64,000 bases of DNA from positions 62,001-126,000 of the forward strand of contig NZ_SBIV01000001.1 of assembly GCF_004765795.1 (NCBI RefSeq). Direction: 5' to 3'. Of the stretch, positions 44,273-48,626 are shown piece by piece; the stretch's first letter is position 1, and each line of letters opens with the position of its first letter. This DNA is from Halorussus marinus. Its GTDB lineage: Archaea; Halobacteriota; Halobacteria; Halobacteriales; Haladaptataceae. A program made the position numbers and the translations under genes. Below the pieces are notes generated by a model, which was given only the letters and a program-made list of their open reading frames with translations, ran no database searches and was not told the origin of the DNA.

Positions 44273-44465
44273 CCGGTCGAGTTCGCCGTCGATCGGATCT
44301 CGCTGGCGGACGCCCCGTATCTGGGATCCCGAGCGACGTGCCGGACGACTTCTCGTTGCCTCGCGTCGGATTCGCCGCGACGCCTCGGAGTCGCCGACTG
44401 CCGCCACCGAAAGGAATATGTCCGAATGCCTGCCTGTTTCACGAACGATTGAGGATGAGTACCAC

Positions 44466-46061
44466 ATGCCGCGACTGACCGGCGGAGAGGCGGTCGTCGC
44501 ACAGCTCGAGCGGGAGGGCGTCGACGTCGCGTTCGGGATCCCGGGTGTGCACACGCTCGACGTCTACGACCCGCTCCTCGACAGCGACATCGACCACGTC
44601 ACGACCCGCCACGAACAGGGCGCCGGCTTCATGGCCGACGGGTACGCCCGAACGACCGGACGGATCGGGGTCGCGCTGGTCATCACCGGCCCCGGGCTGA
44701 CGAACGCCGCGACGCCGATCGGGCAGGCCTACTCGGACTCCTCGCCGTTGCTCGTCGTCTCCAGCCAGAACGAGACCAACGAGGACGGGCGGGGGAAAGG
44801 CTACCTCCACGAGCTCAAAGACCAGCAGGGCGCGATGGAAAGCATCGCGGCTTACAGCGAGCAGGTGACGCGGGTCGCCGACGTCCCCGAGGCGATCTCG
44901 GACGCTGTCGAGTACCTCCGGACCCGTCGGCCCCGTCCCGTCCACGTCCAGATCCCGACCGACGTGCTGGCCCGCGAAGAACGGGTCGAACTCGCGGCGC
45001 CTGTCGGCGAGCCGTCTCCCGACCCGGTCGACGAGACCCGGCTCGCGGCGGCGGTCGACCGGCTCGCGGAGGCCGACCGGCCGCTACTCGTGGTCGGCGG
45101 CGGCGCGTCCGGTGCGGCCGACGCGGTCCGCCGGCTCGTCGACGCCGCCGGCGTCCCGGTCGTCTCGACGGTCGCGGGCAAGGGCGTCGTCCCGGCCGAC
45201 CACCCGCTCGCGCTCGGGGCGACCACCGGTCGCGAGCCGGTCGCCGAGTTCGTCGAGTCCCGGGACCTCGCGATCGCGATCGGCACCGAACTCAGTCCCC
45301 GGGAGTTCGAGTCGGTCGACCTGCCCGAAACCCTCGTCCAGATCGACATCGACTACCGAACCCTCGGCAAGACCTACCCGACCGAGGTCGGCATCGTCGC
45401 CGACGCGGCGGCGGCGGTCCCCGAGCTCGCCGACCGCGTCGAATCGAGGGGCGTCGAGTTCGGCGACGACCAGCGCGAGGCGGTCGCCGACCTCCGGGCG
45501 CGTATCGAGTTGGGGCCCGACGACCGCGACGGCCGCCACCGGATCCTCGCGGCGCTCCGGGCGGCGCTCGACGACGACGCGGTGGTCGTCAACGACATGA
45601 CGAAGGTGTCGTACGCGGCGTCGAGCGAGTTCCCCGTCCGCGAGCCCGACACCTTTCTGTTCCCCCGGGGGTTCGGGACGCTCGGGTTCGGGCCGCCCGC
45701 GGCGTTCGGCGCGGCGGTCGGCTCGCCCGACACGCAGGTCGTCGGGCTGGTCGGCGACGGCGGGTTCCTGTTCACGGTACAGGCGCTCGCGACCGCAGTC
45801 AAGCACGACCTCGCGGTGCCGATCGTGGTCGTCAACGACGACTGCTACGGCGTCCTCGAAGAGATCCAGGCGCGAGACTACGACGGCCGGATCGTCGGGA
45901 CCGACATCGAGAACCCCGAGTTCGTCCCGCTGGCCCGGGCGTTCGGCGCCGCCGCCGAGCGGGTCGACGCCGACGCGGTCGAGACGGAGTTGCCCGCCGC
46001 GCTGGAGGCGGCGTTCGCGCGCGACCGACCGACGGTCGTCGAGATACCGGTCGACTTCTGA
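44466..46061 (+). CDS. thiamine-diphosphate enzyme, probable 2-ketoarginine decarboxylase (AruI-like)
   Basis: 531 residues with three TPP domains. The catalytic glutamate is E50 in HVTTRHEQGAGFMADGYAR; the TPP-Mg site is GDGGFLFTVQALATAV near residue 429 with the final ND motif in VVNDDCYG. The FGIPGVHTLDVY start, the RHEQGAGFMADGYARTTG block and ITGPGLTNAATPIGQAYSDS agree, from memory, better with 5-guanidino-2-oxopentanoate decarboxylases (AruI) than with acetolactate synthases. It would convert 2-ketoarginine to 4-guanidinobutyraldehyde. An aminotransferase follows after 9 bp, as aruH pairs with aruI in Pseudomonas. Confidence 0.8.
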   Translation: MPRLTGGEAVVAQLEREGVDVAFGIPGVHTLDVYDPLLDSDIDHVTTRHEQGAGFMADGYARTTGRIGVALVITGPGLTNAATPIGQAYSDSSPLLVVSSQNETNEDGRGKGYLHELKDQQGAMESIAAYSEQVTRVADVPEAISDAVEYLRTRRPRPVHVQIPTDVLAREERVELAAPVGEPSPDPVDETRLAAAVDRLAEADRPLLVVGGGASGAADAVRRLVDAAGVPVVSTVAGKGVVPADHPLALGATTGREPVAEFVESRDLAIAIGTELSPREFESVDLPETLVQIDIDYRTLGKTYPTEVGIVADAAAAVPELADRVESRGVEFGDDQREAVADLRARIELGPDDRDGRHRILAALRAALDDDAVVVNDMTKVSYAASSEFPVREPDTFLFPRGFGTLGFGPPAAFGAAVGSPDTQVVGLVGDGGFLFTVQALATAVKHDLAVPIVVVNDDCYGVLEEIQARDYDGRIVGTDIENPEFVPLARAFGAAAERVDADAVETELPAALEAAFARDRPTVVEIPVDF

Positions 46062-46070
46062 ACTACACAC

Positions 46071-47294
46071 ATGCAAGACAACGAGCGGACGGGTGCGTTC
46101 GATCACCTGTTCACCGAGACTGTACGAGACGGACTGAACGAAGAGGGGTACGGAAGCTGGCGGTCGATAAAGGCCCCCGGTGCGGTGTCGCTGAGCTTCG
46201 GCTTTCCATTCCCCGAATCGTTCCCCGAGGACCAGCTCGTCGCGGCCGCCGAGGCCGTGTTCGAACAAGAGGGCGAGCGCGCGCTCCAGTACGGCGGCGG
46301 CGAGTACGTCGACCGTCTCACCGAAACGGTCGTCGAGCGCGAGCGCGAGCGAGGCATCGACTGCGACGAGGAGAACGTCCTGTTGACGAACGGCTCGACC
46401 CACGCGATCGACGTGGTCTGTCACACGTTCCTCGAACGCGGCGACGAGGTGTTCGTGGAGGCGCCGACGTTCATGGGCGCGCTCAAGTTGTTCGCGAACT
46501 ACGGCGTCGACGTGACCGGCTTCGAGGCCGACGCCGACGGCCTCGACGTCGACGCGCTCGCGGCGGAGCTAGACGCCCGGCGGGCCGACGGCCGGCCCCT
46601 CCCGAAACTGCTGTACACCATCCCGACCTTCCAGAACCCCGGCGGGACCACCATGTCGCGCCCGCGCCGCGAGCGCCTCCTGGAGCTGGCCGAGGAGTAC
46701 GACTTCGTCGTGCTCGAAGACGACGCCTACGACGACCTGCGGTACCGCGGCGAGCCCGTGGCGCCGCTCGCGGCGCTCGACGACTCCGGCCGGGTGGTCC
46801 GGGTCAACACGTTCTCGAAGACCATCGCGCCCGGGGTCCGGACGGGATGGGTGCTCGCCGACGCGGAACCGCTTGCCGAGATCACCCGGATGCGGGCCGG
46901 CGGGACCAACACGTTCACCCAGAGCGTGCTCGGGCGCTACTGCGCCGAGGGTCGCTTCGAGGCCGACGTCGAGGAGCTCCGGGCGGCCTACGAGCGCCGG
47001 TGTGATCACATGCTCGACCTGCTCGACGAACACATGCCGCCGGGCGCCGAATGGACCGAGCCAAACGGCGGCTTTTTCGTCTGGGTCGAACTCCCCGAGG
47101 GGATCGACGCCGAGGCGCTGCTCCCGACCGCCGCCGACGAGGGGGTCACCTACCTCCCGGGCGAGCAGTTCTTCCCGGACGACGGCGGCGAGAACTGCCT
47201 CCGGCTCTCGTTCAGCCACGTCTCGCTCGACGAGATGGAGCGGGGAATCCGGGCGCTGGCCCGAGCGACCGAGTCGACGCTGGCGGACCACTGA
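46071..47294 (+). CDS. class I/II PLP aminotransferase
   Basis: 407 residues. PLP lysine is K250 in VNTFSKTIAPGVRTGW; the DDAYDD segment supplies the aspartate that pairs with the pyridine nitrogen; YTIPTFQNPGGTTMS is the substrate-phosphate region of the 2-aminoadipate/MocR-like aminotransferase subgroup. No DNA-binding domain precedes it. Nine bp separates it from the decarboxylase, indicating an operon; a role as arginine:pyruvate transaminase is inferred from that partner. Confidence 0.9.
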   Translation: MQDNERTGAFDHLFTETVRDGLNEEGYGSWRSIKAPGAVSLSFGFPFPESFPEDQLVAAAEAVFEQEGERALQYGGGEYVDRLTETVVERERERGIDCDEENVLLTNGSTHAIDVVCHTFLERGDEVFVEAPTFMGALKLFANYGVDVTGFEADADGLDVDALAAELDARRADGRPLPKLLYTIPTFQNPGGTTMSRPRRERLLELAEEYDFVVLEDDAYDDLRYRGEPVAPLAALDDSGRVVRVNTFSKTIAPGVRTGWVLADAEPLAEITRMRAGGTNTFTQSVLGRYCAEGRFEADVEELRAAYERRCDHMLDLLDEHMPPGAEWTEPNGGFFVWVELPEGIDAEALLPTAADEGVTYLPGEQFFPDDGGENCLRLSFSHVSLDEMERGIRALARATESTLADH

Positions 47295-47341
47295 GTCGGC
47301 GACGGTCCGGGAAAACCGGACGCCTACCGGGGCGACGCATA

Positions 47342-47348
47342 GATTTAT
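47342..47348 (+). promoter_or_regulatory. TATA-like box of the deiminase-like gene
   Basis: GATTTAT lies about 30 nt before the GTG at 47376, suggesting a separate leaderless promoter despite being in the cluster. Confidence 0.45.
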
Positions 47349-47375
47349 GCCATCCTACGGACACGTACGCCCATC

Positions 47376-48626
47376 GTGACACACCACTCCGCAACGGCCG
47401 AGTACGACGCGCTGAACGCGGTCCGGGTCCACACGCCCGGCCCCGAACTGCTGACCGGGAGCCTCGACCCCGAGCGATCGCTGTTCTTCGAGCCGGTGGC
47501 GCCCGAACGTGCCCGCCGGGAACACCGACGCCTGATCGAGACCTTCGAGCGTGCGGGCGTCGAGGTCCACCAGCTCGCCGACGACCTCGCCGCGGCCGGA
47601 GCGCTCGACGAGCTGGTCCGAGAGGTCGCGGCCGCGACCGAGTCGACGCCGGGGGACGTCCGCCCGATTCCGGACGTCGACGCCGTCCTCGATGCGTTCG
47701 ACGCCCGCGAGAAGCTCGGGCTGGTGTTGAGCCGCCCGCGATTGCTCGACCGCGACGCCGGGGCGGGCGAGGCCAACTGGTGGGGCCGGTCGGCCGAGTC
47801 GACGGTCGCCGACGTCCGCTTCGAGCGCCCGATCTCGAACATGTACTTCCAGCGCGACCACAACCTGCTCGGCGACGAGGGGCCGATCGTCGCCAACATG
47901 TACGACGCGGTCCGCCAGCCCGAGATCCCGCTGGTCCGGACCGCGTGGGAGGGCGTCGGGGCCGACGTCGCCCATCAGGTGACCGACGAACCAATCGAGG
48001 GCGGGGACTTCGTACCGGCCGGCGACTTCGCGCTGGTAGGCACCTCGGCGGTGGTCGACGGCGAGGAGGAGATCCTCCGGACCAGCTACGCCGCCGGCGA
48101 ACAGTTGCTCGACGCCGGGGCGATCGGGTTCGAGGAGGTCGGACTGGTGCGTGCGCCCCTCGAAGCCGGCCGGGCGATGGCCGAGGAGTACGGCACCGGC
48201 TCGCGGGTCCTCCACCTCGACGGGTGGCTCAACGTCGCGGCTGAGGGGCTGGCGGTCACCCGCGAGCGCCTCGCGGCCGCCGCCGAGGTCGACGTCTACG
48301 AGCGCCGCGGCGACGAGTACCGCCGGCGCGAAACCACGACGGTGCTGTCGTACCTCGACGAGAAGGGCTACGACACGATCAATCCCGACTGGCTCGAACG
48401 CTGGCCGACGAACTTCCTGACCGTCGACGACGGGACGGTGGTCGCGATCTACCGCGACGACGCCGAGGGGACCGGCGAGTACCGCCCCGAGCGCAACCAC
48501 ACCATCGAGGCGCTGAAAGAACGAGGCGTCGAGGTGTTGCCCGACGGTACCGGCCTCCTGCCGAGCGCGCTCACCGCCGGCGGCGGCGGGGTCCACTGCA
48601 TGACGACGCCGCTGTCGCGGGGGTAG
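47376..48626 (+). CDS. arginine deiminase-fold enzyme (guanidine-modifying superfamily)
   Basis: 416 residues from GTG 47376. Catalytic residues of the superfamily are in place: E208 and D211 in PIEGGDFV, H280 in VLHLDGWLN and the nucleophile C408 in GGVHCMTTPLSR at the C-terminus, with ISNMYFQRDHN in the N-terminal part. In arginine deiminases this fold hydrolyses arginine to citrulline and ammonia. Here the gene follows a predicted 2-ketoarginine route, so arginine, 2-ketoarginine or guanidinobutyrate are candidate substrates. It has its own promoter. Confidence 0.87.
   Translation: MTHHSATAEYDALNAVRVHTPGPELLTGSLDPERSLFFEPVAPERARREHRRLIETFERAGVEVHQLADDLAAAGALDELVREVAAATESTPGDVRPIPDVDAVLDAFDAREKLGLVLSRPRLLDRDAGAGEANWWGRSAESTVADVRFERPISNMYFQRDHNLLGDEGPIVANMYDAVRQPEIPLVRTAWEGVGADVAHQVTDEPIEGGDFVPAGDFALVGTSAVVDGEEEILRTSYAAGEQLLDAGAIGFEEVGLVRAPLEAGRAMAEEYGTGSRVLHLDGWLNVAAEGLAVTRERLAAAAEVDVYERRGDEYRRRETTTVLSYLDEKGYDTINPDWLERWPTNFLTVDDGTVVAIYRDDAEGTGEYRPERNHTIEALKERGVEVLPDGTGLLPSALTAGGGGVHCMTTPLSRG

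Follow-up and report, generated by a model that had tools for sequence, protein, structure and literature searches.

A putative transaminase–decarboxylase module in Halorussus marinus with affinity to the arginine transaminase pathway of bacteria

Two adjacent genes of Halorussus marinus, encoding a thiamine diphosphate (TPP)-dependent decarboxylase and an aminotransferase (AT), likely form a module akin to the arginine transaminase pathway of bacteria; the deiminase-fold gene that follows them is not counted in it. On balance, we favour the reading that the two enzymes would act in sequence on a basic amino acid and that the deiminase would be a separate enzyme. The first-pass annotation had interpreted all three genes as a possible archaeal counterpart of the Pseudomonas AruH-AruI route. 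The transaminase–decarboxylase module in this interpretation was supported by the analysis, but orthology of the AT to AruH and membership of the deiminase in the module did not.

The genes lie in a window of 64 kb (contig 1, positions 62001-126000, of a genome of 3.76 Mb). All three open reading frames were found at the positions originally assigned to them and score as coding (Table 1), and the family matches of the three proteins score far above chance. The TPP gene has a further in-frame ATG upstream at 44418; the starts of its homologues correspond to the one given in the table. The TPP protein contains FGIPGVHT and RHEQGAGFMADGYAR as well as E50, and the lysine of the AT lies within NTFSKTIAPG. 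A gap of 9 bp separates the TPP stop codon from the AT gene, and 81 bp, including the TATA-like element, separate the AT gene from the deiminase-fold gene. This element suggests that the deiminase gene may be transcribed apart from the pair. The 9-bp spacing, K250, the TATA-like element and the deiminase residues E208, D211, H280 and C408 had all been described before and were confirmed; D161 and D282 can be added to the list. Likewise, the window was said to hold neither an aldehyde dehydrogenase nor a guanidinobutyrase, and indeed no match to PF00171 (aldehyde dehydrogenase) or PF00491 (ureohydrolase) was detected within the 64 kb. The three genes are flanked by a gene for a methyl-accepting-type protein on the 5' side and apparent ABC-2 transporter genes on the 3' side; as these were assigned by sequence inspection only, they are uninformative on the function of the three genes.

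Table 1 Features of the three-gene stretch, in positions of the window.
Feature	Position	Strand	Remarks
TPP-dependent 2-oxo acid decarboxylase gene	44466..46061	+	531 aa
Aminotransferase (AT) gene	46071..47294	+	PLP fold-type I, 407 aa, Lys250
TATA-like element TTTATG	47344..47349	+	~30 bp 5' of the deiminase GTG start; recognised from sequence only
Deiminase-fold gene	47376..48626	+	416 aa, GTG start, full catalytic set

To place the decarboxylase, we compared it with 18950 NCBIfam models. The best was NF005712 (5-guanidino-2-oxopentanoate decarboxylase): the protein reaches 516.1 bits where 500 are required, a marginal score given that the bacterial AruI-clade members tested reach 670-880. 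The four full-length TPP paralogues of the same genome each score 281 bits or less with this model. The protein stays below the cut-off of the acetolactate synthase model TIGR00118 (347.7 bits, cut-off 538.35) and well under those of the other acetolactate synthase models, and no benzoylformate decarboxylase model is among the 25 best listed. In a tree of 62 proteins, the TPP protein and five other haloarchaeal sequences form one clade (support 100/100), which is the sister of the bacterial AruI clade (99/95) and falls outside rather than within it; the same join with the same support was recovered in a second tree without long branches. The sample was gathered by sequence patterns of the TPP protein's own family, so that other clades may be absent, and it includes no benzoylformate decarboxylase. 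A clade from Sphaerobacter and Chloroflexi falls outside the join of haloarchaeal and AruI sequences, and IlvB, IlvI, Gcl, PoxB and Oxc are distant, which means that the protein groups with AruI instead of acetolactate synthase, glyoxylate carboligase, pyruvate oxidase or oxalyl-CoA decarboxylase. The proposed affinity to AruI over acetolactate synthase was thus borne out by both the models and the phylogeny, which had been suggested as a check against AruI, IlvB and glyoxylate carboligase. A clustering with acetolactate or benzoylformate enzymes had been named as an argument against the idea: the former was not observed, and the latter group is absent from both the tree and the 25 best models.

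The TPP protein resembles the Pseudomonas AruI in its match to NF005712, its sister position, the common motifs FGIPGVHT and RHEQGAGF and the presence of an aminotransferase partner, but it is only about 40% identical and belongs to a separate haloarchaeal lineage. The pocket motifs also differ, with DMTK and NDDCYGVLEEIQ in the haloarchaeal proteins versus DMTQ and NNDALGQIRDDM in AruI (NDDxY..LE(E/D) versus NND..GQIRDDM). Compared with the active-site motifs of AruI, for which there is no formal criterion, K380, D458, Q468 and the stretch 463-467 deviate, and N376, D458 and Q468 partially match the Sphaerobacter/Chloroflexi clade, whose function is unassigned. Because of these pocket motifs we file the protein as a sister lineage and not as AruI proper. 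It is predicted to be a decarboxylase of 2-oxo acids that shares ancestry with the bacterial AruI stock. An acidic residue at position 466 was considered as a marker of basic substrates and dropped, since the AruI clade is itself variable there. A plasmid search with query P0001 gave no hit at 1e-80.

The AT belongs to the LysN / KAT-II / MppQ group according to both sequence models and solved relatives, the best of which are PH0207 (1wst, a multi-substrate aminotransferase), LysN and MppQ. With AruH, the arginine:pyruvate transaminase, it shares the role of the partner-transaminase gene and the fold-type I PLP architecture. However, its identity to AruH is 28% for Pseudomonas nitroreducens and 23% for Colwellia, while those two are 55% identical to each other, and the idea of an AruH counterpart by orthology was therefore abandoned. 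The comparison supports a recruitment of the AT independently of AruH, from another subfamily. Orthologues were detected in 27 of the 284 Halobacteria sampled. In genus g25, the gene stands directly 5' of argG-argH-...-argF and the remainder of the cluster for arginine biosynthesis; this neighbourhood was found in 4/6 g25 genomes, and argG, argH and the ornithine carbamoyltransferase were confirmed by NCBIfam (AT-argG-argH loci at L238:9132-19764 and L239:9130-19810). In g8, G147 and G065 the AT gene adjoins a PotABCD-like ABC transporter, for which the PotA model scores under its cut-off, mostly together with a D-2-hydroxyacid dehydrogenase gene (for example L242:10775-16133 and L235:11683-17576). 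Some of the genomes with this transporter–dehydrogenase arrangement have no close TPP homologue. In G058 (L241:7959-11050) an AT orthologue and the gene of a different TPP decarboxylase are arranged head to head; the closest model of this decarboxylase is benzoylformate decarboxylase (280 bits, under the cut-off). From this arrangement, a pairing of AT and TPP enzymes seems to have arisen twice.

The TPP and AT genes are adjacent in three genomes of the same genus (this genome, G000, together with G011 and G022) with differing flanking genes. Among 28 genomes of the family, exactly these three contain the AT, and the same three contain a close TPP homologue. Across the class (samples of 292 and 284 genomes), the TPP gene occurs in 8 of about 290 Halobacteria and the AT is present in 8/8, corresponding to Fisher p=2e-9 by genome and p=0.013 by genus, in a test that largely ignores shared ancestry. 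Both genes are present and unlinked in g25, and Natrarchaeobius likewise shows no adjacency of TPP gene and AT: at L098:533-7599 of Natrarchaeobius chitinivorans, the neighbourhood of a TPP homologue (60%) comprises an aldehyde dehydrogenase, an amidase and a deacylase of the ArgE/DapE type, with no AT match nearby. The TPP gene of G022 (L047, about 2460-2475; G022:C1) is split into two reading frames around a C run and is thus either a pseudogene or affected by a sequencing error. Bacterial members of the AruI clade are found beside AruH and an aldehyde dehydrogenase in Pseudomonas and Colwellia, and beside or between ureohydrolases in Rubrobacteraceae. A shared pathway is the best reading of a co-occurrence that is adjacent in some genomes and unlinked in others. 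The recurrence of the pair and the position of the AT beside arginine genes elsewhere also fit the transaminase route that had been suggested for it.

The substrates, reactions and downstream steps of such a route are predicted from the gene anatomy, family placement, co-occurrence and contexts established above. The AT would convert a basic amino acid, most likely L-arginine and next L-ornithine, to the 2-oxo acid, and the TPP enzyme would decarboxylate this to a C4 aldehyde (4-guanidinobutanal or 4-aminobutanal). Arginine is favoured because of the AruI relationship and the link of the AT to the arginine cluster. The aldehyde may then be oxidised by an aldehyde dehydrogenase encoded elsewhere in the genome, and a guanidino product, if formed, could be cleaved to GABA and urea by a ureohydrolase, either the agmatinase-like protein of contig C4 or agmatinase. 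Outside the window, the genome encodes eight full-length aldehyde dehydrogenases, an arginase, an agmatinase, a formimidoylglutamase and the one agmatinase-like protein, which is 41% identical to a Rubrobacteraceae ureohydrolase adjoining an AruI-like gene. This guanidinobutyrase-like ureohydrolase is present in the genome studied and in G011, and not in G022 or g25. The downstream steps are thus available, but neither proven nor constant across the carriers of the pair. Weighing against the module are this patchy ureohydrolase, the location of the TPP gene away from the AT in g25 and Natrarchaeobius, the AT loci of genomes that lack a close TPP homologue, the narrow margin over the NF005712 cut-off and the deviating pocket motifs. 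Within ~10 kb at G000:C4:331112-341183 (L183), an agmatinase-like ureohydrolase is encoded together with an aldehyde dehydrogenase and what seem to be a sodium symporter and an amidohydrolase; this region is a candidate for the use of guanidino compounds.

The claim that arginine is transaminated and decarboxylated held for the AruI-related module itself, which is likely in view of the trees, the pairing and the links to arginine genes, but arginine could not be singled out from ornithine, the pocket motifs differing from those of AruI. Arginase could deliver ornithine, which the AT would convert to 5-amino-2-oxopentanoate and the TPP enzyme to 4-aminobutanal, and neither a guanidino intermediate nor a guanidinobutyrase would be needed. 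This is in line with the absence of the guanidinobutyrase-like gene from G022 and g25 and with the precedent of Sinorhizobium meliloti, in which IlvB1, classed as AruI-like because of its homology, shows sevenfold higher activity on 5-amino-2-oxopentanoate (PMC7268258). As in the haloarchaeal pair, the genes of transaminase and AruI-like decarboxylase are neighbours there; the difference is that the transaminase AspC is AruH-like and that IlvB1 prefers the ornithine-derived 2-oxo acid (PMC7268258). All 8 genomes with the TPP gene also contain an arginase. However, nearly all members of the class have an arginase (169/194 Halobacteria over the cut-off), which was therefore dropped as a marker of an ornithine route, and no residue criterion distinguishes 5-amino- from 5-guanidino-substrates. 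Taken together, we regard ornithine as the rather less probable substrate, though one to be reckoned with.

It is unlikely that the substrate of the TPP enzyme is instead a non-basic 2-oxo acid of the branched, aromatic or hydroxy type, supplied by a matching broad-range AT in an Ehrlich-type pathway. The deviation of the pocket from AruI and its partial likeness to the Sphaerobacter/Chloroflexi clade (N376, D458, Q468) would agree with such substrates, as would the broad-range or aminoadipate/kynurenine transaminases that are the nearest solved relatives of the AT. This is countered by the AT orthologues that adjoin the arginine cluster, by the sister relationship of the TPP clade to AruI, and by the results of the model comparison, in which acetolactate models remained far under their cut-offs and none for benzoylformate appeared among the 25 best listed.

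The third gene encodes a paralogue of haloarchaeal ArcA, as judged from sequence comparison. Its product matches the Pfam arginine deiminase family (67.5 bits) and profiles of solved arginine deiminases, and its predicted structure (pLDDT 79.5) matches the fold of 2a9g with E=6.8e-18. D161/E208/H280/D282/C408 align with D166/E224/H278/D280/C406 of the Pseudomonas aeruginosa arginine deiminase (PaADI), and N155/R180 align with N160/R185 of PaADI; these two residues would be consistent with an alpha-amino acid substrate. With the ArcA model TIGR01078 the protein scores 40 bits (cut-off 489), and even the ArcA of a full haloarchaeal arc cluster reaches only 44, so that this model is ill-fitted to haloarchaea. 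We lean towards an arginine deiminase-like enzyme, separately transcribed, for which the conversion of arginine to citrulline would be the likeliest activity. A scan of the genome contigs with query P0003 alone returned no relatives.

The view that all three genes serve one guanidino pathway, with the deiminase converting 4-guanidinobutyrate to 4-ureidobutyrate or acting on arginine as a linked branch, appears quite improbable. The genes are neighbours in this genome, and the AT is present in 13/14 genomes with a non-ArcA deiminase (Fisher p=3e-14; p=5e-4 at the genus level), counts that are inflated by shared ancestry. Furthermore, the gene next to the paralogue at G000:C5 encodes an amidase of the hydantoinase/carbamoylase family (TIGR01879 over the cut-off), which could cleave a ureido compound formed in this way. 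On the other hand, the deiminase gene adjoins the TPP-AT pair in no other genome examined and has its own TATA-like element, and the retained N155/R180 are consistent with an alpha-amino acid substrate. The three-gene operon was dropped on account of the missing linkage elsewhere, the 81-bp gap and the TATA-like element, and with it the deiminase as a partner of the pair; the protein is probably a separate enzyme, functionally unlinked to the two upstream genes. That it is an ordinary, ATP-yielding fermentative ArcA is very improbable: it has the fold, the full catalytic set and 32% identity to the Halobacterium salinarum ArcA, but the genome contains no carbamate kinase (best match 22 bits, cut-off 358), which argues against the ATP step, it has no canonical arc cluster and no arcB, arcC or arcD beside the gene, and ArcA proteins from haloarchaea with arcA, arcC, arcB and arcD together form a separate clade in the family tree.

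The closest relatives of the deiminase, including a second copy in the same genome (58%), form a clade in which HLD is changed to HLL and EGGD to EGGE, while the window protein retains HLD and EGGD. The second copy (L086:9157-10407, G000:C5:259160) falls in this sister clade of 14 sequences lacking the HLD aspartate, and four g25 copies additionally show RD to SD and HCM to NCM. These changes suggest that the clade may have another substrate or has lost deiminase activity. In two genomes (L086:7778-11952, L085:7108-11896), the second copy is flanked by genes for a hydantoinase/carbamoylase-family amidase and a tryptophanase-family lyase (TIGR01879 and NF009709, both over the cut-off); a route for ureido compounds around it is conceivable.

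Arginine breakdown as described in haloarchaea is mainly the ArcA fermentation of Halobacterium, and within the open-access subset of the literature we found no publication that mentions archaea together with 5-guanidino-2-oxopentanoate. Tentatively, we propose that a transaminase pathway for arginine (or ornithine) may have been built in haloarchaea separately from that of bacteria, from an AruI-like decarboxylase and a transaminase of the LysN/KAT-II group; as this is tied to the arginine cluster in some genomes, arginine supply and GABA-type conversion may be co-regulated. If true, some haloarchaea would possess a second, oxidative route leading from arginine or ornithine to GABA and succinate, with one step taken from a different enzyme family than its bacterial counterpart. 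The AruI-type annotation gains a sister group, the substrate of which would show how far the name holds.
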